From Polyangiaceae bacterium (GTDB lineage: Bacteria > Myxococcota_A > Polyangia > Polyangiales > Polyangiaceae): 49,176 nucleotides of DNA. The position numbers and the translations under genes were made by a program. The DNA lies in the NCBI GenBank assembly GCA_025937835.1, contig JAICQO010000045.1, forward strand, positions 1 through 49,176, given 5' to 3'. The stretch's first letter is position 1. Every line of letters begins with the position of its first letter. This document shows positions 7,408-42,596 of the stretch, piece after piece. Below the pieces are notes generated by a model that worked only from the letters and a program-made list of their open reading frames with translations, searched no databases and had not been told where the DNA came from.

Positions 7408-9173
7408 TTGGGACCGTCCAGCGCGTAGTACTTGAGCTGTGCGTCATCTTGATCGATGGGCAGCGGGGCGAGTTGCGCGCTGGCCTCTCGAAAGTCGAAC
7501 GGGCGCATGCCGATGCGGTGCAACTTGTTGAAGTCGTCCTTCTTCCCCGTGATGCCGTCGGTCCACTTGGAAACGGTCGTATTCCCCTCGATGGTGGTGC
7601 CGAAACGACCCACGAATCGCACCTTACCGTCCAACTTAGAGCCGATGTCTGCAACTCCAAGGCGCGAAGTCCAAGGCGCCCTGGTTCCGTCGATTTTGAC
7701 CTCGCGAGACGCTACCGTCGCGCGGAAGGCCTCGTGCTGTGGGATATCGAGCAACCAGCGAGCCTCGAACTCTTCGAGGTGTGGATGGTCTCGAAGTGAC
7801 CAGAAGTAGCGCGAAATGGCGTAGTTCTTGGAGACGTCGGTTTCCCACATCGGTATCGCCGGCGATGCCACCACTAGACGCGTCTTCAACATGTCCTTCG
7901 AGTTGGGCGTGTTGTCCGGCTCGCGCTTCAAAAGCACGAAGCGCGCGAGCCCGATCGGCCTGGCGCGCTTCATGCGCTCGATCCCTTGCCGCAGCCGCGA
8001 TGCGCGCGGGGGTACCGCCACCTGGGAGATGGGTTTGTCGTTGACGCTGTCGGCCGGGTTGGTGTCGTAGTTGTTGCCGAACGAGAGCCCGCCCGCGCCG
8101 AGGGCCACACCGAGCGGGTTGGTGTGCGCGGGCACCGTTTGCATCGCGCCCGTGTCGATCATCTGCAGCTTGCCCGACTTGAACACGCGCACCACGAACG
8201 CGATGTGCTTCTTGTCCTTGCTCACGTAGTTCGTGCCCGGCACCAGGGATCCGTTGGCGATCGCGGAGGCAGCGTTGAGGTTCCCGGATTTGCCTCGCAT
8301 CTCGGCGCTGGAGCCGGCGCCGATCTTCCAGTTGAGCATGCCGCTGGCGCTGCGCGCGTCGAGCACGCTCGTGGCGGCGTCGTCGAACCCGCGAGTGATC
8401 GCTGCCAGCGTCCCCAGGTGCTGGCACGCGAAGATGATCGGATGACACGGATCGTCATCGTCGATCGCGTGGACGTAGACTTTGCTGTCCGCTGCGGCCA
8501 GATAGTTCGGCCCGGGGCCGGCGTATGGCGTTCCGATCAGCGCCTCCGAAATGAGCTGCGACCAGGCCTCCTCGAGCTCCTCCTGGGTGGTGAGCTCGGA
8601 GACCGGCACTTCGCAGAGCGCGCGGCCGTCCTTCAGGGGAAGACCCGGAATGGCTCTCCACACCGGCCCGAGTCCGCCGCTCAACTGGCGATACACGAAC
8701 TTGAGGACGTCCACCGCCCGCGTCGCCGCATCCGAGCCCTTGGTCACGAACTCCGCTGGCTTGATGTTCGCGTCGTTGATCGACTTGGCAAGCTCCGGAG
8801 CCACCGTCGGCAGTTCGACCTGACTGGCTGCGTTCAGCTGGTTTCCGGCGTCGAACTCCGTCTTCTCTCGATGCGCCGTTCCCGCGGCGTCCTTCCAGTC
8901 GACCGTCACGGCGATCTGACCGAGGAAGATCCGCTGTTCCCAGAGCAGCTCCCAGAAGTCTTTTTCTGCGCCCGGCAGACCTTCGCCGAGCAAGATGAAG
9001 CCGCGCTCCTCGATCACCTTCGGCGGCTTGTTCTTGACCGGAAACCGGTGCTCGACCTTCACCTGCGGCGTATCCGCCGGCGCTCGGCCCGGCTCGAAGC
9101 GCATCTGGACCGAGACCTGATCGAAGCCGTCGCGCGACCGAGAAAACCCGTTGCTGAAAGTGACGTCTGCCAT
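7404..9173 (-). CDS. Unknown protein with a possible NlpC/P60-like cysteine hydrolase core
   Basis: A 589-residue protein without a signal peptide that I cannot assign to a named family. In the middle it has a pattern reminiscent of papain-like cell-wall amidases: a Cys at the start of a helix (PIIFACQHLGTLAAI, Cys250), about 70 residues later VPGTNYVSKDKKHIAFVVRV (His323 leading a beta strand), then a polar residue on the next strand (QMIDTGAM, Asp340). Spacing and the PG-x-x-Y/HIAFVV wording fit NlpC/P60 or CHAP folds, but overall similarity is not demonstrable by eye. The flanking N-terminal (1-200) and C-terminal (390-589) regions are unknown. It sits 4 bp behind the OmpA/PG-binding gene and overlaps the next gene by 4 bp. 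Confidence 0.6.
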   Translation of the reverse strand: MADVTFSNGFSRSRDGFDQVSVQMRFEPGRAPADTPQVKVEHRFPVKNKPPKVIEERGFILLGEGLPGAEKDFWELLWEQRIFLGQIAVTVDWKDAAGTAHREKTEFDAGNQLNAASQVELPTVAPELAKSINDANIKPAEFVTKGSDAATRAVDVLKFVYRQLSGGLGPVWRAIPGLPLKDGRALCEVPVSELTTQEELEEAWSQLISEALIGTPYAGPGPNYLAAADSKVYVHAIDDDDPCHPIIFACQHLGTLAAITRGFDDAATSVLDARSASGMLNWKIGAGSSAEMRGKSGNLNAASAIANGSLVPGTNYVSKDKKHIAFVVRVFKSGKLQMIDTGAMQTVPAHTNPLGVALGAGGLSFGNNYDTNPADSVNDKPISQVAVPPRASRLRQGIERMKRARPIGLARFVLLKREPDNTPNSKDMLKTRLVVASPAIPMWETDVSKNYAISRYFWSLRDHPHLEEFEARWLLDIPQHEAFRATVASREVKIDGTRAPWTSRLGVADIGSKLDGKVRFVGRFGTTIEGNTTVSKWTDGITGKKDDFNKLHRIGMRPFDFREASAQLAPLPIDQDDAQLKYYALDGPK

Positions 9174-9177
9174 GGGA

Positions 9178-12100
9178 TCAGTCGTGGGCGATCACCAGCG
9201 TGAAGTCGCGGAGCACGACGCGTGCCCCGCCGGGCGGTAGCGCGGGAAACGCGACCTTGCCCTCGGCGTCGGTCTCGCCTTCGACGAGGCCCCACGGCGT
9301 GTGCAGCGTGAGCTTGGCGTCTGCCGCGGGCAGCTCAGTGTCGCGGTGCACGAACGTGAGGTCCAGCGAATCCGCGAACTCGAGCTCGTCCGAGCGCGCG
9401 ATGCGGCCGCCGCCGGTGTACACGAAGCGGAACGTGACCTCGGGGAGCTCCTTCACGACGCTCGAATCCGGAGGAGCCGCGTCGGGCGAGAACCAGTCGG
9501 CGAACGCGAAGCTTGCGCCGTCGCCGCCCGCAGTCACCGTGCTCTCGTCGATCAGCACCGGCTCGCTGCCGGGCACGAGGCAGAAGATCTGAAGGTCGAG
9601 CGGCGTTCCAGCGGGCAGCCCCGGCGCGAGCAGCGTCGCTCGTCGCTCCTGGTCCGTGCGCGCGGGCGCGGCGGGGTCCCATCGCGCTGTCCACGGTTTC
9701 GCGCTGACCATCGCACCGAGCGGCGTGCGCTCGTAATGGTTCGGCAGATAGAGCTCACTGGTCTCCGGATCGCTCTCCGCGGCCGCGAGGTCCGGCTCCT
9801 CCCCGGGCTCGAAGAACAGGAGCTCCACTCGCCGGTTGAGCTGGCTCTTGTAGCCGTCCACACCGAGCTCCTCGATCGGAAAGTACTCGCTGAAGCCCAG
9901 GGCCTCCCGCTCTGGATCCACGAACACCAGGCCCTCTCGCAGCTCGGCGAGCCCCTCCTCGTCCTCGCCGAGCTCCTCGCGCAATGCATGCTCGTAGCAA
10001 TCGAACACCGCACCCCAGGTCAGCGGGCCCATATCACCGTCGGGCTCGAGGTCGTCCGCGGTCGCGCCCAGCGCGTCCTTGTTCGCGTTGTACGCGACTT
10101 GGAACCTGCGAACGGGTTCGACTCCGGTCGCTGCGTTGTCGTCGATCTTTCCCGGATCGCAGTCGAACTCGAGCTCGGGGAATGCCCGAGACACCCAGGC
10201 CAGGATCTGCTTGTAGTCGGAGACCTGATGCCGGCCGTCACACAGAGCCTTGAACGCTTCGCGCTGCTCCTCGCCACCGACCAGTAGCGCGAGGGCACAC
10301 CGTGCCCTCTCTTCACTCAGGGTCTGGTTGAAGTCGATCTCGCCCGTGGTATCGCAATGTCCGGCGACGAACACGGACTGGTTCGGATGCTCTTGCAGGA
10401 ACCGCAGCGCCGTGGCGAAGACGCCGACGGAGCTCAGGCTCTCGAGCTTGCCCGAGTCCTGGTTGGGCGCCTCGCCCTCGGGCAGCACGACGGCGCTGTT
10501 CGTGCGGAAGTGCGAGTCCAGGAGCTCGACGAACGTGAGCTTCGGTCCGTTCAGCGGCCCGGCGCGCAGGTCGTGCGTCTGAACGACGCTCTTGCGCCAC
10601 GCGGGATACTGCGTGCTGCCGGCGGGCGAGTTCTCACCCGGCGGCGCGGGCACGATGCCGAACTCGGGGTCGAAGAAGAACAGCTCGACGCGACGATCGC
10701 CCTGGTCCTTCTGCTCGTCCGCCGGCCCGGGATCGAGCACCTCGCCGCTGTCGTCCACCGGGAAGTTCTCGCCGCAGCCGTGCGCGACCGCGTCGACTGC
10801 GATACCGAGCTCCGACGGCGCCGGGCCATCGAGTTCCATGTACTCCGTGATCAACTGGCGGCGCGTCTCGGGGCCAGCCTTGCCGTCAACCTGCAGCCCG
10901 CGCGTGGTCTGGAACCACTTCACCGCGTCCTGCCCCTTCGGCTTGTCGGGGAAGTCCGGCAGCGAGATGAGCATCATGCGATCTTCCGCCCGACCCCAGC
11001 GCTGCTCCTTGGAACCTCCGTCCTCGTAGTATGCGAGCCAGGCGTCGACGTCGTCCTTCAGGAACGCGATCGTCGCCTTGGCGCGTTCGAGAGACAACGG
11101 GTCGTTGATCGACGGCCCTCCGGTCGTGTCCGCGTGGCCGACGACGAGCAGCTTGTCGTCGCGGTGCTCGAGCTGAATGCTGCGCAGGCCGCGCAACCCG
11201 GGCAGCGCCGTTGGCAGCAGAAACACCTTACTCGTGTTGAAGAACAGATGGAGCCGGGCCAGCACCGAGAAGGGCGCGACCCCCAGCATTCGCGTCTCCG
11301 GCGTGCTCGACCCGGCGGGCAGTACGACGAGCTGCGTCTCGTACTCGTCCGTCTGCTGGTCCTTCCCCTCGAAGAACTCGAGGAAGAACTTCAGCGTGTA
11401 GTCGCCGGGGAAGACGTCGTCGTGTTGCAGCCGCCCGGCTGTGTCGGTCTTCCCTTCGAAGGTCTGCGGTCCGTCGATCTGGTAGCGGCGCTCGGAGTGG
11501 CGGATCCGGCCCGTCTTGTCGAGCAACTGCGCGAACAGCCGTCCCAGGGGCGGCTTGATGACGACCACATTCGACACCACGGGCTTCAGCGCGATGCCCC
11601 CGAGATCGGCGCCGTTGAACACGGAATGAGTCGTATTCGGCTCCGTTGGGTTCACCCGCCGGCGCGGCCGCTGCCATCGAGGATCGACGATTCGATCCAG
11701 CGCCGTCGCGTCGATCCGTGTGATCTCACCGCTCGAGCTGGTCGCGTTCTCGACGAGTGCGACACCGGCGGCGTTGCTCGTCTGATCGCTCGCGACAGTT
11801 CCGATCGTCAGCTCGACGGGTAAGCCGTTCAGCGCCGAGCCCGCCTCGTCCACCAACCGAACCTCGAAGAGCGTGGTCGTCGATTCGCGCGCTGGCTTCG
11901 GTAATGGCGGCAGCGCGAGCTCCGGCGCTTCCTCCGGCTCACGGAACGTGAAGAGCGTCTCTCGCTCGACCGAGATCTGCCCGCGCAACGTCGCGAGCTC
12001 CACGCGCCGGAACAGGTCGCCGGCGCCTGCGGTTCCGCGCGACGGCACGACGCTCTCGAAGGCAGCGCCGCCGGACAAGGTATTCTCGAGATCTCGCGCG

Positions 12101-28286: not shown

Positions 28287-29081
28287 ATGTCGGAAACGGC
28301 GGAAGGCGAAGTGCACGATACCGAGGTGTCCGCTGGGAACTCGCCGGGTGCGGCGGCGCCTTTGCGCGTCGCGCTGCTGTTGGCGGCGGAAGATGCGGGG
28401 CAAGTTTATAGCCCAGCTGCGCTATGCGATGCGGTGCTCGAGCTCCAAGCCTCGGGAGTGAAGGAGCTGACCCTTTCGGCGTTCGGCGAGCTCTCGCACT
28501 GGGCGCGAGCGGCGGCACCCTCCGAGGCGCAGCGCTTTGGCGATTTCCTTGCGTATGCCACGCCCTGTCTGGTCGCCGCGGGGATCCGCGTCAGGGCTCT
28601 CGGCAATGTCGACGAGCTGCCGAGCGCGCTCCGCCACGGCCTGGAGCACCTTCTGGAAGCGACCCGCTCGTGCCACGGTATGGCTCTTACGCTCCTGGTG
28701 TCGTACGCGGGGTGTGCCGACGTGATCGAGACGGCACGACACCTGGCCGCGCTGGTTCGGTCCGGGTTGCTGATCCCCGAAGACATCGACGAGCAGCTGT
28801 TTCGCGAGCGCATGCAAGCGGGGAAGGTCTCGGACTTCGACCTGTGCATTTCCCGCGAGGGAGCGATCCTCGCGCACGAGCTATTCCCATTTCAAGGTGC
28901 ACGCGCGGAGTCGTTGGAGATCTCACCGGAACCCGAGCAGCTCGGTGCAGAGCTCGGCCGCGTGCTCGACGAGCGCGCCGCGCGTGATCGCCTGAGCGAG
29001 GCGCCGACCGCGAGCGGGTCCCGCCTTCGCCCGACCCAGTTTCGCGGCGCGCGCCTTTCAGCGAATGGTCGAGGCGCGTGA
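28287..29081 (+). CDS. Degenerate cis-prenyltransferase (UppS-like) homologue
   Basis: A 264-residue protein whose middle aligns by eye with undecaprenyl diphosphate synthase: LTLSAFGELSHW (61-72) for LTLYAFSTENW; GIRVRALGNVDELP (99-112) for GVxLRxIGDxxxLP; LTLLVSYAGCADVIETARHL (134-153) for LTLNxALxYGGRxEIVDAxR; and LIPEDIDEQLF (162-172). Two catalytic parts are lost. The MDGNGRWA loop with the essential Asp is replaced by LLLAAEDAGQ, and the RTSGExRLSNF pyrophosphate-binding loop by ISREGAILAHEL. It is therefore probably a non-catalytic paralogue, perhaps regulating or binding isoprenoid diphosphates. The C-terminus is Arg-rich and unstructured. No linked isoprenoid operon is adjacent. Confidence 0.7.
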   Translation: MSETAEGEVHDTEVSAGNSPGAAAPLRVALLLAAEDAGQVYSPAALCDAVLELQASGVKELTLSAFGELSHWARAAAPSEAQRFGDFLAYATPCLVAAGIRVRALGNVDELPSALRHGLEHLLEATRSCHGMALTLLVSYAGCADVIETARHLAALVRSGLLIPEDIDEQLFRERMQAGKVSDFDLCISREGAILAHELFPFQGARAESLEISPEPEQLGAELGRVLDERAARDRLSEAPTASGSRLRPTQFRGARLSANGRGA

Positions 29082-29141
29082 CCACCCAAATTTCTCCCGA
29101 GGGGCCACTCGATTATCGTGACCACGACGACACCCCCGTGC

Positions 29142-30305
29142 ATGGCGCAAGGCGGACGCTCGGCCCTCCCGAGCGCCATCCTGCTTGCGCTCATCACGAT
29201 GGCCTGTGGCTCCTCGGGAGATTCCGCTCCCGGGCGCTCGTCTCAGCGGCATGGGCCCGCTAGCTCGGGCGGATCGATCACGGAAGACTGGTCCACAGGG
29301 AGCGGCGGAGTCACGGCCTCCGCAACGGGTGGCAGTGCGTCGCCCGCAACGCCGTTCGTCGCGTTGCCGAAGAGCAGCGGCGGCGGTGCCCCGTCGAGCG
29401 GTCGTTCGCCACAGGGAGGCGCAAGAACCAGCGGGGGACGCGGCGGCTCTACCACCGGCGGTGTTACAGCGAGCACTGGCGGCACTTCGGACAACGCCTC
29501 CGGCGGCGTCGCACCAGCGGAGAGCCCAGCACCTGAGGGCACTGCGAAGGGAACTTGCTGCGCGGACGGTGATTGTCTGTGCCATACGGCTCCGCCGAGC
29601 GAGCCGACCGCGAGTGACGGCCCGTACGAAACGTCGACGCAGACGCTCGGCACCGGCACGCTGCATTACCCGACCGACGCCGAGCCGCCGTTCGCGGGGA
29701 TCGCGATCTGCCCCGGATTCTTGAATAGCGGACCGGAGATGGCTCCCTGGGGACGCTTCTACGCTTCGTGGGGCTTCGCCGTGGTGGTGACGAACACCGG
29801 TCCCCTCGACCTGCCGGACCTGCGCGGCAGCAAGTTGGTAGCGGCCATCGACGAGCTCAAAGCAGAGAACGCGGGCAGTGGTCCGCTCGCTGGCAAATTG
29901 GCAGGGCGCTACGGCACGAGCGGCTATTCCATGGGTGGCGGCGGCACGACGCTCGCATCCGCCAAGGACCCGACGTACAGGAGCTCGGTCGGGCTCGCCG
30001 CCTGGGGACCGGACGGCAGCAAAGTGAAAGTGCCGACGCTCTTTCTGTGCAGCGATAGCGACACGGTCGCGGGCTGTGGCTTCTCGCAAACCGCTTACGA
30101 CGCGATGGGGGCGACACCGAAGATGCTGATCGAGATCCCGGGCGCGAACCACTTCGCCTGGTTCGGTCCCGACGCCGCGGGCCGAGGCACGTCCGGAGCG
30201 TACGCGCTGGCGTTTCAGAAAGTGTTTCTCGAGGGGGACGAGCGCTGGCGCCCGCTGTTGCTCGGTCCCGCAACGCAAGGCAGCGTCGTCACGAACATCC
30301 AGTGA
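29142..30305 (+). CDS. Alpha/beta-hydrolase lipoprotein, polyester-hydrolase (cutinase)-like
   Basis: A 387-residue lipoprotein (LALITMACGSS, Cys22) with a ~110-residue Gly/Ser/Thr stalk and then a compact alpha/beta hydrolase (about 165-387). The catalytic triad is visible: GYSMGGGG (S263), CSDSDTVAGC (D307, flanked by C303 and C312 in a likely disulfide) and GANHFAWFG (H337). The GxSMGGGG elbow and ordering resemble bacterial cutinase/PETase-type esterases of the dienelactone-hydrolase family. A cell-surface esterase acting on polyesters, cutin-like or lipid substrates is likely. The ATG at 29142 is chosen for its signal peptide. It is convergent with the next sigma gene, 15 bp apart. Confidence 0.83.
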   Translation: MAQGGRSALPSAILLALITMACGSSGDSAPGRSSQRHGPASSGGSITEDWSTGSGGVTASATGGSASPATPFVALPKSSGGGAPSSGRSPQGGARTSGGRGGSTTGGVTASTGGTSDNASGGVAPAESPAPEGTAKGTCCADGDCLCHTAPPSEPTASDGPYETSTQTLGTGTLHYPTDAEPPFAGIAICPGFLNSGPEMAPWGRFYASWGFAVVVTNTGPLDLPDLRGSKLVAAIDELKAENAGSGPLAGKLAGRYGTSGYSMGGGGTTLASAKDPTYRSSVGLAAWGPDGSKVKVPTLFLCSDSDTVAGCGFSQTAYDAMGATPKMLIEIPGANHFAWFGPDAAGRGTSGAYALAFQKVFLEGDERWRPLLLGPATQGSVVTNIQ

Positions 30306-33620: not shown

Positions 33621-35170
33621 CGGGGCGGCGCGTGGCCATCCCGGCCCTGCTGCTGGGCCTGGGCGCGCTGCGCTGCGGTGTCGAACGAGACATCGTGGCG
33701 CGGCGCCTGTCCGCCGCGGAAACGGGCGGCAGTGACACGGGAGGTCGAATCGAGACCGCGGGCAAGGCGACTCAGGGCGGCGCGGGCGGCGGTGCTCGAA
33801 TCGGCTTTGGCGGCGCACTGTTCGGCGGTGCCCCGGCTCTCGGTCAAGGCGGCGCGGGCGGCCTGATCCAGGGCGGAAGCGACGCGGGCGGCAGCGAGGC
33901 AGCCGGTCGAGGCGGCGCACGCGTCGCGACCTGTGAAGAAGCCGCCTTCGTATCGACCGCGCAGAGCTCCCTGCCCACGCGGGACACCTGCGGCGCGTGG
34001 GCTGCACGCCGCAGCTTCGCCCACGCCCTGTGCGCGTGCACGGAGGTCGATCTGGGGCGCGGACTCGTGACCACGGCCTTCGACTCGTCGGATCCGGAGC
34101 GCGATCTGGAGGGGAGCGCGGCCGTGGGCGTCCTCGGCGATCTGCGTCGGGCGGAGTACTTGCGGCTCGACGGCTCGCTCACGGTTGCCGGCGATCTCAG
34201 CCTGCGCGCGAACGGCAGCGTCGACATCGCCGGTGACCTGCGGCTTGCCGGCTCGCTGACGGCCGCGGGTCCGATCTCGGTCGGTCGTGACGCCTGGTTC
34301 GCCGGAAATACGTCTTCGCTCAGCCTGTTGGAGGTCGAGCGCGACTTGCACACCGCCCCGCGCAGCCGGCTGATGTCGTTCGGTCCGCCGCGCGTCGGCG
34401 GCGAGCGTTTCGAGGAGGCGTTCACGATCGCGCCGCCGTGCGCGTGTGAGCCGAGCGAATTGCTCGACGTGCCCGGGATCGTCAGCGACGGCCTCACGCG
34501 CAACGACAACGCGCGCATCGGGCTCGCTCTCGACGCTCTCGACGCGCTCGACGCGCCCGACCCGGAGAGCCCGACCACCGAGCTGACGCTGTCTTGCGGG
34601 CGCTTTGCTCTCAGCGCCATCAGCGGGACAGCGCCCGTCACGATTCACGTCGAGGGTGCGGCGGCCCTGTTCGTCGACGGAAACGCGGAGCTCGGTCCCG
34701 ATTTCGTCCTCGAGCTCGGGGCCGGCGCGACGCTCGATTGGTTCGTTCGAGGCAGCCTGACGCTCGCGAGAGGTGCTCGGCTCGGTGACGCGCTCAGACC
34801 GGGCGCGCTCCGGCTTTACACGACCGCGCCCTTCGAGCTCGGCATACCGGGCACGGACGAAGTCGCCATGAACCTGTACGCGCCGCTCTCGGAGGTGCAG
34901 GTCGGAAACGCGGGCAACGTCTACGGCGCGCTGTTCGCGGGCAGCGTCACCTCGCCCGGGACCTTGCTCATCGACTACGACGTGTCGGTCTTGGCATCGA
35001 GCCCAGCCTGCGAGTCGTTCACGCCTCCCACCTGCAGCCGCTGCGATGACTGCGCGAGCAGCGCGACCTGTACGCTCGGGAGCTGTGCGCCCTGCACCAC
35101 GGACGCCGACTGCTGCTTTCCGCTCGTGTGCTCGCTCGGGGAGTGCGCCCCGCTGCGCACCGACGATTGA
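33617..35170 (+). CDS. Putative surface lipoprotein with Cys-rich C-terminus
   Basis: A 517-residue predicted lipoprotein (LGLGALRCG, Cys20) with a Gly-rich stalk. The central part is a beta-rich, possibly beta-helical region with repeats (SLTVAGDLSLRANGSVDIAG; DLRLAGSLTAAGPISVGRD). A segment, GNVYGALFAGSVTSPGTLL, is like the DUF7305-type adhesin/pilin-associated proteins. The C-terminal ~55 residues hold many Cys (CSRCDDC, CTLGSCAPC, DADCCFP), a disulfide-rich knob. Function is unknown; a cell-surface structural role is likely. It is translationally coupled to the FecR gene upstream and followed after 5 bp by a membrane-protein gene. Confidence 0.68.
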   Translation: MTGRRVAIPALLLGLGALRCGVERDIVARRLSAAETGGSDTGGRIETAGKATQGGAGGGARIGFGGALFGGAPALGQGGAGGLIQGGSDAGGSEAAGRGGARVATCEEAAFVSTAQSSLPTRDTCGAWAARRSFAHALCACTEVDLGRGLVTTAFDSSDPERDLEGSAAVGVLGDLRRAEYLRLDGSLTVAGDLSLRANGSVDIAGDLRLAGSLTAAGPISVGRDAWFAGNTSSLSLLEVERDLHTAPRSRLMSFGPPRVGGERFEEAFTIAPPCACEPSELLDVPGIVSDGLTRNDNARIGLALDALDALDAPDPESPTTELTLSCGRFALSAISGTAPVTIHVEGAAALFVDGNAELGPDFVLELGAGATLDWFVRGSLTLARGARLGDALRPGALRLYTTAPFELGIPGTDEVAMNLYAPLSEVQVGNAGNVYGALFAGSVTSPGTLLIDYDVSVLASSPACESFTPPTCSRCDDCASSATCTLGSCAPCTTDADCCFPLVCSLGECAPLRTDD

Positions 35171-35175
35171 GGTCC

Positions 35176-37029
35176 ATGTCCATCGCGGGGCTGTCTCGGC
35201 GAGCTGCTCGCTGGCTTTCGAGACGAAAGTACGCCGCCTGCGGGATCGTCGCGCTGGGACTTTTGCTGGCCAGCCCGTCGCTGTGGACGGAACCGGTCGC
35301 CGACGATCTGCTTCACGAGCTGCTCCTCAGGCCGGATCCCGGCGTCCGCGGCCTCGAGCCGAAGACGCTCGACCTGTTTCGATTCGCCAGCGGCGACGCG
35401 ACGAGGGCCCGCGCGCTGATGAACGAAGGGGTCTTCCCCTGGTGGACCGACCCGAGCGTGCGGCTTGCGTTCTTCCGTCCGCTGGCGGGGCTCACTCACT
35501 GGCTGGATTGGCGCTGGCTTGCCGGAAGCGCCTGGTGGATGCACCTCCACAGCCTGGCGTGGTACGGCGCGTTGCTGGGCGCGCTGGCGCTCACTTATCG
35601 CCGGCTCGCTTCGCCGGCGACCGGGCTGCTCGCACTGCTCTTCTACGCGGTGGATGACGCGCATGCGCCCACGGTCGGGTGGATCGCGAATCGCAACGCG
35701 GTTATCGCTCTGCTTTTTTCCGTGCTCGCCCTCGCCGCTCACGCCAGGTGGCGTACCAGCGGAAGAGCCAGGTTTTGCTGGCGCGCGCCGGCCTGGCTCG
35801 GCCTCGGCCTGCTCGCGGGCGAGTCGGGCATCGCGGGCGCGGCTTACCTGCTGGCTTATGCGCTGTTCCTCGAGCGCGGGCCGCTCCGCACGCGGGTGCG
35901 CTCGTTGCTCGGGCCGTTCCTCGTGTTGGTCGCCTGGCGCGTCGTCTACGTTCAGCTCGGCTACGGGACGTCCGGCTCCGGCGTTTATTTCGACCCGGTC
36001 ACCAGCCCGCTCACGTTCCTGCGCACGCTCGCTGAGCGGGTGCCCGTGTTGCTGCTGGCCGCGGTTGCGTTGCCGTGGTCCGACTTCTGGGAGGTGTACT
36101 CGCTCGTCTCGAGTTGGGCTGGGCCCGCTGTGTGGTGTTTCGCGATCGCGGTCTTGGCTGGACTCACGCTGTTGTTGCAGCCGCTGCTCCGCGACAGCGC
36201 CACGGCGCGCTTCTGGGCCGCGGGCACGGTCTTTTCGGCCGTCCCGGCGGCGTCGACCTTTCCGCACGATCGAATGCTGCTCGCCGTGACGGTCGGCTGG
36301 ATGGCCCTGCTCGCAGAGCTGCTGACCACGGCGGTTCGCTCTCGCAGCCGCGAGTTCTGGCTTGCTGCGCTCGTGTTGCTCCACGGCGTCGTCGCACCGC
36401 TGGTGTTGCCGGTTCGAGCTTCGCAGGTCGATCAGCTCGGTCGCTTGCTGTTGCGCTCCACCCGCGAGTTTCCGAACCCGGCTGCGCTCGCCGGCAGCAC
36501 CGTCGTCTTGTTGAATCCGCCCGCCGATCCGTTCGCGGCGTACTTGCCCCTGTACTTCGAAGCGCAGCAGCGCGCTCGACCGCGGCACTTCATGTGGCTG
36601 ACGAGCGGCGTGTCTCCGGTGCAAGTCCGCCGCTCGAACGCGCGAACCCTCGCGGTTCGGCCGGCGGCCGGCTACTTGAGTCACGCGACGCAGCTGATGC
36701 TGCGAAGCTCGAGTCGCCCATTGCCACTCGGCCACACCGTACGTCTCGAGGCCGCGACGTTGGAAGTGACGGCGCTCACCGCCGACGGCAGGCCGGCCGA
36801 GATCCGCGTGACGTTCGCACTGCCGCTCGACGATCCGGCCCTGGTGTTGATGAGCTGGAGCGCTGACCGCTACGTGAAATTCATCCCGCCGCGAGAAGGC
36901 GAGGTGGTCGAGCTACCTGCGATCGATCTCGTAAGACTGCTGCTGACTCGAGCTCAGAGCAGCGACTCGAGGGCCGCCCGTTCGAAGCGCAGCGTGTGGC
37001 CGAGCGCGGGGGGCGCGACGAGCGTGTAG
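35176..37029 (+). CDS. Polytopic membrane protein, GT-C glycosyltransferase-like
   Basis: A 617-residue protein with about ten to twelve transmembrane helices and a C-terminal soluble domain. The start at 35176 follows the previous stop by 5 bp with GAGG before it. An early acidic loop (TEPVADDLLHELL), then FRFASGD, FFRPLAGLTHWLDW and VGWIANRN resemble GT-C-type lipid-linked sugar transferases of the PMT/ArnT kind, but no diagnostic catalytic motif is certain. It is a clear paralogue of the convergent gene ending at 36954 (shared FRFASGD, VGW..RN, SGSG.Y.DP, VV.LNPP.D.FA.Y). Its last ~25 codons continue past the paralogue's end and are antisense to it, suggesting loss of the original stop. 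Confidence 0.72.
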   Translation: MSIAGLSRRAARWLSRRKYAACGIVALGLLLASPSLWTEPVADDLLHELLLRPDPGVRGLEPKTLDLFRFASGDATRARALMNEGVFPWWTDPSVRLAFFRPLAGLTHWLDWRWLAGSAWWMHLHSLAWYGALLGALALTYRRLASPATGLLALLFYAVDDAHAPTVGWIANRNAVIALLFSVLALAAHARWRTSGRARFCWRAPAWLGLGLLAGESGIAGAAYLLAYALFLERGPLRTRVRSLLGPFLVLVAWRVVYVQLGYGTSGSGVYFDPVTSPLTFLRTLAERVPVLLLAAVALPWSDFWEVYSLVSSWAGPAVWCFAIAVLAGLTLLLQPLLRDSATARFWAAGTVFSAVPAASTFPHDRMLLAVTVGWMALLAELLTTAVRSRSREFWLAALVLLHGVVAPLVLPVRASQVDQLGRLLLRSTREFPNPAALAGSTVVLLNPPADPFAAYLPLYFEAQQRARPRHFMWLTSGVSPVQVRRSNARTLAVRPAAGYLSHATQLMLRSSSRPLPLGHTVRLEAATLEVTALTADGRPAEIRVTFALPLDDPALVLMSWSADRYVKFIPPREGEVVELPAIDLVRLLLTRAQSSDSRAARSKRSVWPSAGGATSV

Positions 37030-38651
37030 CGGTCCCCGTGCCAGGCGACGAACACGAGCGATTCGTGCTCGAGCGGCACGCGGAACCGGAATCGGACGAC
37101 CGACGGCCCCTCGAGCTCGGTCTTTTCCAGGATCTGCGCGCTAAACGCCGCGAAATCGAGGACGGGGCGCAGCGACGTTCCGTCGCGCCGGTACAAGCGC
37201 TCGAGCGGCGCCGCCCAGTAGCCGCCCGGCCGCCGGACTTCGAGCGTATCGACGGCGACGCGCGTGATGCTGAACGCGGAGCTCGAGCTCGAGAGCCAAT
37301 ACAGATGGCGGGCCACGCCGGCGCCACGCGCGGCGCGCTCGAGCTGGATGTAGCTCGCGAACAGATCGCGCGGCGGATTCAACACGACGACCGTCCGGCG
37401 CTCGAGCTCGGGAATCGTATCGAAGATGCGCGTGGACTCCGCCGTGCGCTGGCCCAACTTCTGAAATTGTCCGGCGCGCAGCGCAAGCACCGCGGGCGCG
37501 CCCAGCGCGTGCCAGCCCACGAACAGCGCTGCGAGGACCCGAGGAGGGCGCAGGTGGGAGAGGCCGGGCACCAGACGGGACACGAGCGGCGTGACTCCGA
37601 GCAGAACGAGCAACAGCCCGCGATCGTTCGGTGGAGCCGCGCACAGCGGCACCAGCGCGAGCAGCGCGCTCAACGCCCAGAAGCGCGCGAGCGGCTCGCA
37701 ATGCACGGCACGGCGGACCGCAAAGCCGAAGGTCAGCGCCAACAGCGCGGCGAGCACGAGGCTCGCCCGTGCCTGGTCTCTTCCTCCGACGAAGATCAGA
37801 TCCGCCGAGACGGGCCCGACTGCAGCGCCGAGGCCGGACAAGAGCCGCTCCGGGGCCGCAGCCAGCAGCGCCGAGACGTCGTCCAGCGGGTCGAGGTACG
37901 CGCCCGAGCCGCTCGCGCCAAAGCCCGAGGCGAAGTGCAGTCCACGCCAGAGCAGCGTGACGAACGCGACGGGCAGGAGGCTGCGGATGCGCGCGCGTGC
38001 CGGCCGTGGATCGAGCATCCAGGTGTGACAGGCGATGTAAGCGAGCGCGCACAGCGCGAGTTCGCCGGACGCGAGCCCCGCCGCGAACAAGCACAGCGCG
38101 CGCAGGCGACAACCCGAGACCCAGGCCGTGATCGCGCAGATCCCGAAGAAGGTCGCGATCAGCGTGTTCCGACCGCTGAGCCAGCCCACGGCAGGTCCGA
38201 ACGACGGCGAGACAGCGAACAACAGCGTTGCAGCGAAGGCTCGCCATGTGTAGCGGCGCTCCAGGCGGCGATGCAGCCGCGCTGCCACAGCGATCACGAG
38301 GCCGAGCCAGACCAGGCTGTGCGCGTACATGAGCCGCGGCGAGCGCGGCCAGCAGGCAAAGTCGAGGGCGTGGGTCAGCGCGCTCAGCGGGCGCAGGAAT
38401 GCAATGCGGAGCTCGAGCTCGGACCACCACGGCAAGAGCACGCCCCGCTCGATGAGCTCGCGGTTTTGCTGGGCGTCGCCGCTCGCGAAGCGAAACGCCC
38501 CGAACAGTCCCGAATCGAGCCCTGAAAATCGGCCCCCCCGGAGCGCCAGCTCGATCACCGCGTCGTCGAGCACGCGCTCTGGACCGAGCGCCGGCAGACA
38601 CAAGCTCACGCCCACGAAGACGCAAGCCAGAAGCCGCCAGCGAACGGCCAC
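36954..38651 (-). CDS. Polytopic membrane protein, paralogue of the convergent GT-C-like gene
   Basis: A 565-residue multi-pass membrane protein with the same plan as its convergent neighbour: a signal-like first helix, an acidic loop (GPERVLDDAVIELAL), FRFASGD, AFLRPLSALTHALDF, VGWLSGRNTLIA, a SGSGAYLDP loop, and a C-terminal soluble region with VVVLNPPRDLFASYIQL and HESLVFVAWHGDRYTLVAPP. Role unknown; a membrane sugar or lipid transferase is suggested by the fold only. The 3' end overlaps the neighbour by 76 bp. It diverges from the lipocalin-prenyltransferase fusion with a 120-bp gap. Confidence 0.72.
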   Translation of the reverse strand: MAVRWRLLACVFVGVSLCLPALGPERVLDDAVIELALRGGRFSGLDSGLFGAFRFASGDAQQNRELIERGVLLPWWSELELRIAFLRPLSALTHALDFACWPRSPRLMYAHSLVWLGLVIAVAARLHRRLERRYTWRAFAATLLFAVSPSFGPAVGWLSGRNTLIATFFGICAITAWVSGCRLRALCLFAAGLASGELALCALAYIACHTWMLDPRPARARIRSLLPVAFVTLLWRGLHFASGFGASGSGAYLDPLDDVSALLAAAPERLLSGLGAAVGPVSADLIFVGGRDQARASLVLAALLALTFGFAVRRAVHCEPLARFWALSALLALVPLCAAPPNDRGLLLVLLGVTPLVSRLVPGLSHLRPPRVLAALFVGWHALGAPAVLALRAGQFQKLGQRTAESTRIFDTIPELERRTVVVLNPPRDLFASYIQLERAARGAGVARHLYWLSSSSSAFSITRVAVDTLEVRRPGGYWAAPLERLYRRDGTSLRPVLDFAAFSAQILEKTELEGPSVVRFRFRVPLEHESLVFVAWHGDRYTLVAPPALGHTLRFERAALESLL

Positions 38652-38771
38652 GCTTCATCCAGTGCGGGCTCACCAATGGAACGGGTGGGTGCGCGGCGCC
38701 AAACATCTCTGAACCAATGCGCCCGCCCGGACTCGCGCGCATCAGCCACTCACGAAGGTACGGCGGTCAAC

Positions 38772-41090
38772 ATGAAGATTCCGGAGCCTGCCCAGCCCCT
38801 GTCCTCGCGCGTGCCAAAGTCCGGTCCCCGGCTGCACACTGCCGAGCGGCCCCGCACGCATCCGTCGGATTGGCCAGGGCCTGGACCCATCGAGCTCTCC
38901 ATCCAGGACTTGCCGCACGCGTCAGCGACGCTCGAGTGGTGGTATCTGAACTGTCACCTGCGCACGCTGAGCGGGCGCGAGTTTTCGCTGTTTTCTGCGT
39001 TCTTCCGGCAAGCGGCGGCGCTCCGCGCGGACGGAGCGTTCGAGTACGCTCACTCCCTGAGCTGGGCGCTCTGCGAGCCGGAGCGCCGCCGCTACTTCCC
39101 CAATGTCGCGGTCGACTCGCGGGCGCCGGGGCTCGGGCTGAAGAAGCTCGAAAGGCTCGGGCCGGGCGGGGACGATCGGCTGAGCCGCGCGCTCTCCGAG
39201 GTGCTCGAGCGCGGCCGAATCCCCGCGCCCACGCGAATCTTCGAGGGCGACGCCCGCGTCGAGAATCAAAAGCTCGATCTCGGCTACGGCCGCGACCGCC
39301 TCAGCAAGACGGCCTCTGGAGCGTATCGCGTGGAGCTCCACGACGAGCGAAACCAGCTCAGCTGCAAGCTGCTGTTCACTCCGCGGAAGCCTGCCCTCCG
39401 TCAGGGCGACGACGGGTTGATCCACGGCGTGGCCGACGAGCTGATGTTCTACTACTTCATCCCGCGCTGTGAAGTGACGGGCACGATCACGCTCGCGGGC
39501 GAGACCGAAGCCGTGGTCGACGGCTCGGGCTGGTACGACCACGAATTCGGGGCCCCGCCCGCGGAGACGGCGAGTGCGCCGGCAGCCGCCGAGACGTCGT
39601 GGCGCTGGACCTCGATCCAGCTGGATGACGGGACCGACGTCAGCGTGTTTCTGATCGCACGGCGCTCGACGGGGGAGGTGCTCGACAACTGGACGGTGGT
39701 GAGCCGCCCCGACGGCAGCTCGCGAACCGTTCGTGGCGCGCGGCTCGAGACGCTCGCGACCTGGCAAAGCCTGCGCTCTTTCGTGGAATACCCAACGAGC
39801 CTTCGCCTGATCGTCCCGGACCTAGGTCTCGAGCTCGAGCTCGTTGCGAGCTTCGAGGACCAAGAAGTGCTGACGGTCATCTCGGATCCCGGCTTCTGGG
39901 AAGGGCGCGTGGAAGCGCGCGGGCGGCTGAACGGCCGTCGCGTGAGCGGTCGCGGCTGGCTCGAGTGCAAGGGCTTCCGCTTCGCGAACGTCGGCGCCTT
40001 CTTCGAAGCCGTCGGCAAGCAAGTGCGGGGACGCCTGGCGGAAGTCTTGCCGAAGGCTCCCGACAAACCGCGCCTGGGCGGGCTGTTGGTGCGTGGAGAC
40101 CGCGCGTCGAGCGGGGTCGAGCGCTACGCGGACGGAGTGCCCCCGAGCGCGCTCGTGCGCTCCCTGGTCGAACCGATCCGCGAGATCGCCGACCGCGGCG
40201 GCAAGGGCTGGCGCTCCTATGCGGCGCTCGCGTGCATCGACGTGGTCGGCGGCGACTCACGAAAGTTCGGGCACTGGCTGGCGATGCCGGAGCTCTTGCA
40301 CGTCGGCTCGCTGATCGTGGACGACGTCGAGGACGCCTCCGACGTTCGCCGCGGTGGACCGACCTGCCACCGCATCCACGGGCAGAATCTGGCGATCAAC
40401 GCCGGCACCGCGGCCTATTTCCTGGCAGAACCGCCGATCTGGGACGACGACCTGCCGCTCGAGGTCAAGCTTCGGGTCTATCGATTGTACTTCGACGCGC
40501 TGCGCGCCGGACACGCGGGGCAAGCGCTCGATTTGCTGGGCCTGGAGGACGAAGCAGCCAAGGCCGTCGAGAGCGGTGACGCAACCGAGCTCGAGCGCCG
40601 GGTGCTCGCGATCCACCGGCTCAAGACGGCAGCGCCGGCTGCGATGATGGCGCGGGTCGGCGCGCTGCTCGGCGGCGGGAGCGATGCGCAGGTCGAGGCG
40701 CTCGGCGACTTCTTCGAGGCGATCGGGCTCGCGTTCCAGATCGTCGACGACGTGCTGAACCTGCGCGGCTTCGAGAACGGCCTGAAACAACGCGGCGAGG
40801 ACATCCGGCAAGGCAAGATCACCTTGCCCATCGCGTGCGCGCTCGGCCGCGCTCCCGTCGTGATGCGGCGCTGGCTCTGGCGCATCCTGCGTTCTCGACC
40901 CAGTCGAGAGAGCACCGTCGAAAACGTGATCCGCCTGCTCGAGAGCCTGGGTGCCCTCGACGACTGCATGCGGCTCGCTCGTGACAACGTGGAGGAGGCG
41001 TGGCGAAAACTCGATCCAGTGCTCGAAGACTCACAGGTCAAGCTGATGTTCCGCGCGTTCTCGTGGTTCGTTCTCGAGCGGCACTACTGA
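38772..41090 (+). CDS. Fusion of CrtC/AttH-like lipocalin domain and polyprenyl diphosphate synthase
   Basis: A 772-residue two-domain protein; ATG 38772 is preferred because upstream codons are low-complexity. Residues about 45-400 form a double-lipocalin domain of the carotenoid hydratase (CrtC)/AttH family: LEWWYLNCHL (EWWY at 55-58) and DGSGWYDHEFG (WYDHEFG at 254-260). Residues about 455-765 are an all-alpha trans-prenyltransferase: GGKGWRSYAAL (476-486), first Asp-rich motif DDVEDASDVRRGG (517-529), second FQIVDDVLNLRGF (655-667) and RGEDIRQGKITLP (674-686). The first DDxxD is intact; in the second the last Asp is Asn. Members of the lipocalin family hydrate or cyclise isoprenoids, so one chain could make and then modify a prenyl diphosphate-derived terpenoid. 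No signal peptide is seen. Confidence 0.85.
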   Translation: MKIPEPAQPLSSRVPKSGPRLHTAERPRTHPSDWPGPGPIELSIQDLPHASATLEWWYLNCHLRTLSGREFSLFSAFFRQAAALRADGAFEYAHSLSWALCEPERRRYFPNVAVDSRAPGLGLKKLERLGPGGDDRLSRALSEVLERGRIPAPTRIFEGDARVENQKLDLGYGRDRLSKTASGAYRVELHDERNQLSCKLLFTPRKPALRQGDDGLIHGVADELMFYYFIPRCEVTGTITLAGETEAVVDGSGWYDHEFGAPPAETASAPAAAETSWRWTSIQLDDGTDVSVFLIARRSTGEVLDNWTVVSRPDGSSRTVRGARLETLATWQSLRSFVEYPTSLRLIVPDLGLELELVASFEDQEVLTVISDPGFWEGRVEARGRLNGRRVSGRGWLECKGFRFANVGAFFEAVGKQVRGRLAEVLPKAPDKPRLGGLLVRGDRASSGVERYADGVPPSALVRSLVEPIREIADRGGKGWRSYAALACIDVVGGDSRKFGHWLAMPELLHVGSLIVDDVEDASDVRRGGPTCHRIHGQNLAINAGTAAYFLAEPPIWDDDLPLEVKLRVYRLYFDALRAGHAGQALDLLGLEDEAAKAVESGDATELERRVLAIHRLKTAAPAAMMARVGALLGGGSDAQVEALGDFFEAIGLAFQIVDDVLNLRGFENGLKQRGEDIRQGKITLPIACALGRAPVVMRRWLWRILRSRPSRESTVENVIRLLESLGALDDCMRLARDNVEEAWRKLDPVLEDSQVKLMFRAFSWFVLERHY

Positions 41091-41723: not shown

Positions 41724-42596
41724 TCAAGCCTTGCGGAAGACCAGCGTGATGTCCGTGCTCCGCGACAGGAACGAGCCGAACAAGCCGTAAAACAGCGCCA
41801 GCGGCAGCCGCGCGAGGAGCTTCCCGATCCGCACTGGCTCGATCAGCGCGTCGAGCGTGTCATCCGTGAGGGTGAGGTAGAAGCGGTAGAAGCGCTCGTT
41901 CAGGCACGGCAGGCGGGTGTTCGCGTACATCGTCGAGTACACGCGCTCGAGCCGCCAGCCAAGGCGCTCTCCCGCCGCGATCAACGCGCCGCGCGACAGG
42001 ATGTGCCGGTGATACGGCAGGTGCAGCGTGTGCGCGTAGGCTTCGGGCTCACTCAGATCGATCGCGCTTGCGTCCGGTGTGCCGATCACGATCGCGCCTC
42101 GTGGCGCCGTCAGCGCGTCGAACTGGGCGAGCAGCGCGAGCGGCGAATCGACGTGCTCGAGGCAGTCCTGCGAGACCACGCAGTCGTAGCGACGCTTCAA
42201 GGCGGCTCCGTCCGCGAAGCTCGCCGAATAGGGATCATAGCCCTCGGAGCGCGAGTAGCCGGACCCTCGCAGGAACCGCACGAATGCGCCCTCCCCGCAG
42301 CCGAAATCGAGCACGCGGTGGTCCCGTTCCAGCCCCGCGCCGCGGAGCCGGCGAAGCTGATTGGCGTAGAGCGCGCGCAGTCGAAAGTCCGGCGGCAGAG
42401 CGTGAAATGGATACCGCTCGTAGTAGCGCGCGAGCTGAACGGGCTCCGACGCGTGCAGGCTTGCGCAGGCGCGGCAGCGCCACACCGAGAAGCATTCGCT
42501 GCGAAAGGCGCGGACGTTGGAGCGCACGCTGGCGCGCTCCGCCCCCTCCTGCGTGCTCTGGCCGCACACCGCGCAGGCGTTCTCGGAATCAAGCAT
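41724..42596 (-). CDS. SAM-dependent methyltransferase with N-terminal zinc ribbon
   Basis: A 290-residue class I methyltransferase. The N-terminus carries two Cys pairs (CAVC at 8-11; WRCRACASLH, about 39-48), probably a zinc ribbon. The Rossmann core has motif I VLDFGCGEGAFVRFL (about 94-108) and CLEHVDSP later. This layout is frequent in enzymes of surface-polysaccharide and natural-product loci. It is the last gene of a four-gene minus-strand operon and its start overlaps the preceding propeller gene's end by 8 bp. Substrate unknown. Confidence 0.83.
   Translation of the reverse strand: MLDSENACAVCGQSTQEGAERASVRSNVRAFRSECFSVWRCRACASLHASEPVQLARYYERYPFHALPPDFRLRALYANQLRRLRGAGLERDHRVLDFGCGEGAFVRFLRGSGYSRSEGYDPYSASFADGAALKRRYDCVVSQDCLEHVDSPLALLAQFDALTAPRGAIVIGTPDASAIDLSEPEAYAHTLHLPYHRHILSRGALIAAGERLGWRLERVYSTMYANTRLPCLNERFYRFYLTLTDDTLDALIEPVRIGKLLARLPLALFYGLFGSFLSRSTDITLVFRKA

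Follow-up and report, generated by a model that had tools for sequence, protein, structure and literature searches.

The gene between positions 38,772 and 41,090 of the window (the whole stretch of DNA that was analysed, 49,176 nucleotides of a Polyangiaceae genome) encodes a barrel of the AttH/CrtC lipocalin type joined to a trans-prenyltransferase, and this fusion is a real single chain that is conserved across phyla. Both domains belong to known families; the lipocalin is a different and unexpected partner for a chain-making enzyme. The preferred reading, to which about an even chance is given, is that the protein is a bifunctional terpenoid enzyme, whose synthase would build a polyprenyl diphosphate and whose barrel would protonate and hydrate the far end of that chain. 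The fusion and its parts are arranged as follows:

38772..41090, + strand: fused AttH/CrtC-type lipocalin and trans-prenyl diphosphate synthase, 772 amino acids, stop included
38919..39977, + strand: double-lipocalin domain, residues about 50-402 (Pfam, sequence profile, fold and conservation)
39978..40088, + strand: helical stretch between the domains, residues about 403-439 (secondary structure of the model)
40089..41087, + strand: trans-prenyl diphosphate synthase domain, residues about 440-772 (Pfam, fold and conservation)

The first-pass annotation had read this region as one uninterrupted chain carrying the signatures of both families, and this is borne out by a frame (38772-41090, +) free of internal stops across all 772 residues and by matches of both halves above the curated Pfam cut-offs. 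The barrel is matched by CrtC (PF07143, 6e-18, 66.5 bits against a cut-off of 22.5) and, at residues 273-401, by Lipocalin_9 (PF17186, 4e-18, 66.3 bits against 26.2), while residues 464-722 are matched by polyprenyl_synt (PF00348, 1.1e-45, 156.3 bits against 27). The whole-chain structure model (mean pLDDT 88.8, pTM 0.88) agrees with this layout, with mostly strands from about residue 54 to 400, forming the N-terminal barrel, and helices from 407 to 768, forming the synthase. The barrel holds the motifs EWWY (55-58), WYDHEFG (254-260) and WxW (W277/W279), and the synthase holds GGKGWR (476-481), DDVED (517-521), DDVLN (659-663), Y549-F550 and H581. An alignment of 48 fusions contains 43 invariant columns, of which the barrel contributes 5 and the synthase 38, so this set of motifs lies far beyond chance (alignment A1 comprises 46 of the 48 fusions, with L084 and L085 omitted). 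An alternative in-frame ATG at 38676 would give the fusion 32 extra residues, and because its homologues mostly begin aligning at about residue 27-34 of the window protein, the choice between the two start codons is unsettled. No classical terpene cyclase domain was found in the protein with Pfam and NCBIfam profiles, and its assignment as a family 2 encapsulin cargo polyprenyl transferase (NF041169) was rejected at 131 bits against a cut-off of 450. Around the gene no promoter-like sites were found and five terminator-like ones, against 1.7 expected, several of which fall inside genes.

The same join is found in independent assemblies, including a one-contig genome of 10.3 Mb and a two-contig genome of 11 Mb, which disposes of an assembly join between two separate genes; with this, and with the PF07143 match, neither of the outcomes named in the first-pass annotation as fatal to its proposal (halves always separate and joined here by assembly, or an N-terminal part matching no lipocalin/CrtC profile) has come about. 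When the whole protein was searched against a phylum sample of 377 Myxococcota genomes, matches at E <= 1e-30 were obtained in 45, the own genome included. In 42 of these 45 one place runs from query residue 61 or before to residue 769 or beyond, and identity across these near-full-length matches, the own genome excepted, is 38-53%. In three genomes (G092, G121 and G261) the match is divided between two contigs, at contig ends by coordinates, and in two of the 42 (G254 and G185) a single stop interrupts the match close to its N-terminal end, the frames still spanning residues 32-772 and 28-772, respectively. Loci L053 and L075 were omitted as contigs of L007 and L006, and L031 was merged with L054.

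Outside this sample, a search of the genome_contigs collection returned five fusion loci, two in myxobacterial bins (contigs that, judged by length, are those of G004 and G020) and three, at 39-40% identity, in Flavobacterium species. The fusion is rare in Flavobacteriaceae, where it occurs in one of 249 sampled genomes, namely the one on which the sample was centred. Among plasmids, 186 records match part of the fusion; a single place spans 80% or more of the query in three of them, those of Tolypothrix PCC 7601 and 7712 (34.9% identity) and of Streptomyces canus (31.6%). None of the 14 matching records of a phage collection covers 80% of the query, and the best five of these 14 match the synthase half only. 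When the synthase domain alone was searched against 144 genomes of the order, 16 places had E values of 1.8e-59 or better, every one within an open frame of at least 654 residues (with this G+C, long frames arise often, and their length alone is no proof of fusion), and the next synthases appeared only at 5.5e-29; among the places newly met in this search, L140 was inspected.

Regarding the barrel, its earlier description as CrtC/AttH stands at the level of the superfamily, on profiles and fold, and does not extend to CrtC proper: judging from its sequence, the fusion barrel is on the side of AttH and kievitone hydratase, and not a carotenoid CrtC. A lipocalin profile (alignment A7, 30 of the 48 fusions, with motif-altered rows and near copies omitted) found two credible relatives among solved chains, NE1406 (2ich, 1e-32) and kievitone hydratase (7a0q, 4.6e-15), and the WYDRQWG and WTW of the latter align onto WYDHEFG and WxW of the fusion. 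Fold comparison with the fusion barrel gave Z 36.7 for 2ich (2.8 A, 309 residues, 24% identity) and Z 32.0 for 7a0q (3.0 A, 299 residues, 17% identity). The CrtC reference set consisted of six proteins annotated as carotenoid hydratases and encoded at crtD-crtC loci on plasmids, without R. gelatinosus CrtC itself. All six read HxWxxxAP...YxDxN...WxW, and their spacing, H-x-W-(24)-Y-x-D-(14)-W-x-W, matches H239/W241/Y266/D268/W283/W285 of R. gelatinosus in the numbering of PMC4717167 and PMC12402844. With respect to these six proteins, the fusion retains equivalents of D268, W283 and W285, but not of H239, W241 and Y266; the position of Y266 is occupied by W254, and HxW is absent from residues 215-240 in all 48 fusion rows. 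Comparison of the fusions with CrtC by hhalign reached a probability of just 0.4 on a scale of 0-100 (E 0.13), with the same motif paired.

In a quick, midpoint-rooted tree of 28 of the 48 fusions, the six CrtCs and 30 stand-alone Myxococcota AttH proteins, all six CrtCs are set apart by a fully supported branch, as are all 30 AttH proteins, the fusions being placed between them (2 label changes) and a single fusion clade not being established. An identity as carotenoid CrtC proper was consequently discarded, since three of four essential residues are absent, the two are separate in the tree and the profile comparison is weak. Several of the stand-alone Myxococcota AttH proteins look like lipoproteins by eye. 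In the genome of the window, which is 95.8% complete, the fused chain was the only match found for PF07143.

According to the preferred reading, the C-terminal domain would condense isopentenyl diphosphate with an allylic starter to give an all-trans polyprenyl diphosphate, most likely C20, and the N-terminal double lipocalin would accept that chain by its far (omega) end. D256 would then protonate the terminal trisubstituted double bond, W277 and W279 together with other aromatics would stabilise the resulting tertiary cation, and its quenching by water would yield a prenyl diphosphate or prenol hydroxylated at the omega position. With both domains in one chain, the product of the synthase would stay near the second site, and in some lineages the hydroxylated chain might next be glycosylated, sulfated and exported. 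Substrate, chain length, hydration and the order of the steps are the inferred parts of this scheme, which builds on an observed single chain with identified domains, conserved motifs, recurrence and kinship to a proven prenyl hydratase. In favour of it, D256, W277 and W279 are each kept in 46 of the 48 fusions, the first of them matching the proposed proton donor of CrtC, W254 is kept in 47, and the best solved relatives of the barrel include an enzyme that hydrates a prenyl tail; against it count the replacement of the H239, W241 and Y266 equivalents, the weak profile comparison with CrtC, the altered barrels of some relatives and the low conversion of geranylgeraniol (4%) by RgCrtC. No clear biosynthetic cluster was seen around the fusion among 18 window proteins scanned with Pfam.

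A different fate of the same cation has to be considered, in which D256 protonates the omega double bond and an internal double bond traps the charge, making the barrel a cyclase that releases a cyclic terpenyl diphosphate. Its first step would be identical to that of hydration, in the mode of class II terpene cyclases, and in the excerpted text of PMC4717167 the acid of CrtC is likened to D376 of squalene-hopene cyclase. Ring and rearrangement chemistry is also described for related folds, as the CrtC-domain enzymes PenF and AsqC carry out epoxide rearrangements (PMC6013536, in part) and the ring-forming Diels-Alderase CghA has an AttH-like fold (PMC8159843, in part). However, no same-fold cyclase of acyclic polyprenyl diphosphates appears among the literature matches listed, and the nearest solved enzyme with a known function is a hydratase. 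A paper on a terpene Diels-Alderase (PMC9095873) names lipocalin solely in its reference list. The water quench is ranked above ring closure, cyclisation by the barrel being considered unlikely.

Lipocalin folds bind hydrophobic ligands, and the barrel could also be a non-catalytic carrier or scaffold which passes the hydrophobic chain from the synthase to a later enzyme. In support of this role, motifs have been lost in some relatives while the chain stays fused: L043 (G286) has lost the acid motif and L042 (G370) keeps Tyr-Asp and has lost WxW, both with intact synthase motifs, while L086 (N. stercoris) and L140 keep the synthase motifs behind an N-terminal part that lacks the WYD motif and has no Pfam match to CrtC or Lipocalin_9. 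Together with the S. canus fusion, where Glu replaces D256, these four altered barrels suggest that the domain can persist without the proposed protonation and hydration chemistry. Nevertheless, an acid of no evident need to a pure carrier would not be expected to recur, with W277 and W279, as widely as it does, and a carrier function for the window protein is deemed quite improbable. As to their whereabouts, the altered form of L086 (11374-13323) is encoded on a Nitrosomonas plasmid typed as conjugative, and that of L140 (1498-3423) in a myxobacterium.

The synthase half is conserved more strictly. Both Asp-rich motifs of trans-prenyl diphosphate synthases are present in the window fusion; D517, D518, D521, D659, D660 and H581 are found in 48 of 48 fusions, and Y549 and F550 in 47. 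The suggestion that DDVLN may alter chain length is weakened: N663 is the rule of the family (N in 46 of the 48, D in two) and human and yeast GGPP synthases also carry DDxxN, so that no unusual length is expected from this motif by itself. In yeast GGPP synthase (Bts1) a Tyr-Phe pair and a His lie at the floor of the chain pocket, and given that Y549, F550 and H581 resemble these residues, the product of the fusion synthase would most likely be C20.

In a quick, midpoint-rooted synthase tree containing 28 of the 48 fusions plus L086 and L140, a group with support 89 unites these 30 fused or degenerate-fused rows with two Streptomyces synthases that stand alone, and adjoining that group (support 99) are five synthases, including the one linked to lycopene cyclase in the genome of the window. 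The deep fusion branches are poorly resolved; the pattern is compatible with a single ancient fusion that later spread horizontally, and does not prove it. One of the stand-alone synthases of the fusion clade (L087, on a Streptomyces plasmid) adjoins an ABC transporter permease/ATPase pair, and so does the fusion on the S. canus plasmid (L085).

Three genes lie close to the fusion in the window:

36954..38651, - strand: membrane protein, read divergently from the fusion, of a family that has members near it in 10 of the 46 loci
35128..37029, + strand: second member of the same membrane-protein family, adjoining the first
41724..42596, - strand: class I SAM methyltransferase (Pfam Methyltransf_23, 4.8e-22)

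Methyltransferases related to the last of these adjoin the fusion in three other loci (L040, L054 and L065). The membrane proteins, whose motifs look GT-C-like by eye, are unproven as GT-C glycosyltransferases: none of seven members has a Pfam match above the cut-off (the best, in one member, being DUF2878 at 0.004), and there is no sequence match in the PDB. At 10 kb from the fusion, a divergent cis-prenyltransferase homologue (28287-29078, +, PF01255 8.6e-13) does not show the MDGNGRWA start motif of the L040 cis-prenyltransferase and is possibly a pseudo-enzyme; a strong second cis-prenyltransferase match occurs at C5 of the same genome. The window also encodes a PET-hydrolase-like protein (29118-30302, +, PF12740 5.1e-40), and elsewhere in the genome (L003) a lycopene cyclase (PF05834, 1.1e-68) is encoded in a frame beside a GGPP-synthase-like one.

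The commonest neighbour of the fusion is a family of about 200 residues found beside it in 18 of 46 loci, in 15 of these 18 as the next gene on the same strand:

L058 10651-11355 and L071 11455-12078: examples of the H-NOX-like family of about 200 amino acids, present at 16 other loci

Pfam and NCBIfam gave nothing better than 0.016 for this family, in single members, and its assignment as DUF2378 is unsupported by both. The structure modelled for it (pLDDT 94.9) is similar to H-NOX domains (TM about 0.5-0.6, best E 4.4e-5), and an H-NOX-like fold is hence predicted; a haem sensor was rejected, since no column is all His in 16 members and YxSxR occurs in none (alignments A3 and A6, two short members of the 18 omitted). 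A profile of these 16 members has strong matches (E <= 1e-25) in 30 of the 377 genomes, 28 of which hold the fusion; this equals 28 of 45 fusion genomes against 2 of 332 fusion-free ones, in figures that come from a profile built on fusion neighbours, from related genomes and from eight first-look candidates scored per genome. Among the 12 strong-match genomes outside the 18 with adjacent genes, ten hold the fusion. The H-NOX-fold protein thus appears to track the fusion across genomes, with 17 of the 45 fusion genomes lacking a strong match and that of the window showing a weak one (8e-6), remote from the fusion.

In two lineages the chain is longer, with a sulfotransferase, a GT28/EryCIII-like glycosyltransferase, the lipocalin and the prenyl synthase following one another in frame:

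L040 (G120) 6075-10604: four-part protein of 1509 amino acids, in a myxobacterial relative of the host of the window
L084 12727-17256: four-part protein of 1509 amino acids, on a Tolypothrix plasmid, annotated as one CDS

The Tolypothrix gene adjoins devC and genes for an ABC ATPase and a membrane fusion protein (DevBCA-type exporter genes), and cysC is 11.5 kb away from it; DevBCA is described as an exporter of glycolipids. In G120 a sulfatase lies upstream of the gene; downstream are a methyltransferase and one of the three cis-prenyltransferases that this genome has. In addition, the fusion of G250 is flanked by a GT28-type glycosyltransferase and an epimerase, one per side, and G052 has a GT4-type enzyme near the fusion, with relatives in two sister loci. 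As these sugar genes were picked from many mostly non-sugar neighbours, a link with glycosylation is suggested rather than shown; Pfam was run on a selection from the 169 called neighbours, and no operon common to all fusion loci was found. A bolder proposal, doubtful at present, is that these proteins form a family of terpenoid synthases complete in themselves, the newly built polyprenyl diphosphate being converted to a cyclic or hydroxylated terpenyl diphosphate by a lipocalin barrel and not by a helical cyclase; in some bacteria, fused glycosyl- and sulfotransferases would extend this to a single protein that makes a sulfated terpene glycoside for export.

The same genes bear on the least probable of the readings, in which both domains are active and the substrate that the barrel hydrates or rearranges is some other prenylated molecule (a prenyl lipid, a glycolipid or a carotenoid end) after transfer of the chain: the sugar- and sulfate-transferring domains fused in two lineages, the GGPP-synthase-like gene adjoining a lycopene cyclase gene in a host that may make carotenoids, and the activity of CrtC on lycopene and neurosporene and of kievitone hydratase on a prenylated isoflavanone (PMC6013536, in part) speak for it, whereas the selected neighbours scanned with Pfam include neither an aromatic prenyltransferase nor a clear carotenoid gene, with the caveat of an Amino_oxidase-family flavoprotein, possibly desaturase-like, two genes from L042.

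Neither the lipocalin-synthase fusion, nor its spread and four-part form, is described among the open-licence literature matches listed, and the fusion may represent a short path to modified terpenes that has yet to be described. As the mining of terpenoid pathways usually relies on classical cyclases, its products could be overlooked. It is widespread in Myxococcota, a poorly studied group, and occurs as well in genera of which strains have been cultured (Flavobacterium, Tolypothrix and Streptomyces). If the bifunctional reading is true, a prenyl-hydratase barrel would be tied directly to chain synthesis and could open a way to omega-hydroxylated or cyclised prenyl diphosphates that needs no cofactor.

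Among known systems, carotenoid 1,2-hydratase CrtC of the R. gelatinosus type belongs to the same superfamily and shares with the fusion the acid Asp and the WxW pair, but it differs in the three changed residues described above, forms a separate clade and has no synthase. D268 of CrtC is the proposed proton donor and its alanine mutant is inactive (PMC4717167), and CrtC converts some C20 geranylgeraniol (PMC6013536). More than 20 C12-C20 terpenes are hydrated at their terminal double bond by a single CrtC, with a conversion of just 4% for geranylgeraniol by RgCrtC and with m/z 59 and less m/z 69 as the marks of hydrated tails (PMC12402844). Kievitone hydratase (NhKHS, 7a0q/7a0t) adds water to the prenylated isoflavanone kievitone (PMC6013536, in part), and the fusion barrel has both the WYD...WxW motif and the double-lipocalin fold of this type of prenyl hydratase; unlike the fusion, it is a fungal stand-alone enzyme without a synthase domain. 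NE1406, the closest solved lipocalin, has the EWWY and WxDxE motifs in common with the window protein and was deposited as a putative AttH, standing alone where the window barrel is fused. As for the synthase half, it shares its full fold with the short-chain trans-prenyl diphosphate synthase 1wy0 (Z 37.5), which, like the lycopene-cyclase-linked synthase of the own genome (32% identity to the fusion synthase), has both Asp-rich motifs but no lipocalin; the domain is also matched by 8v0f, a PDB chain of 959 residues named copalyl diphosphate synthase. A chain maker and a chain modifier are likewise found in one polypeptide in the fungal terpene synthase-prenyltransferase chimeras, where the partner is a helical terpene cyclase, whereas in the fusion reported here it is an N-terminal beta-barrel lipocalin.
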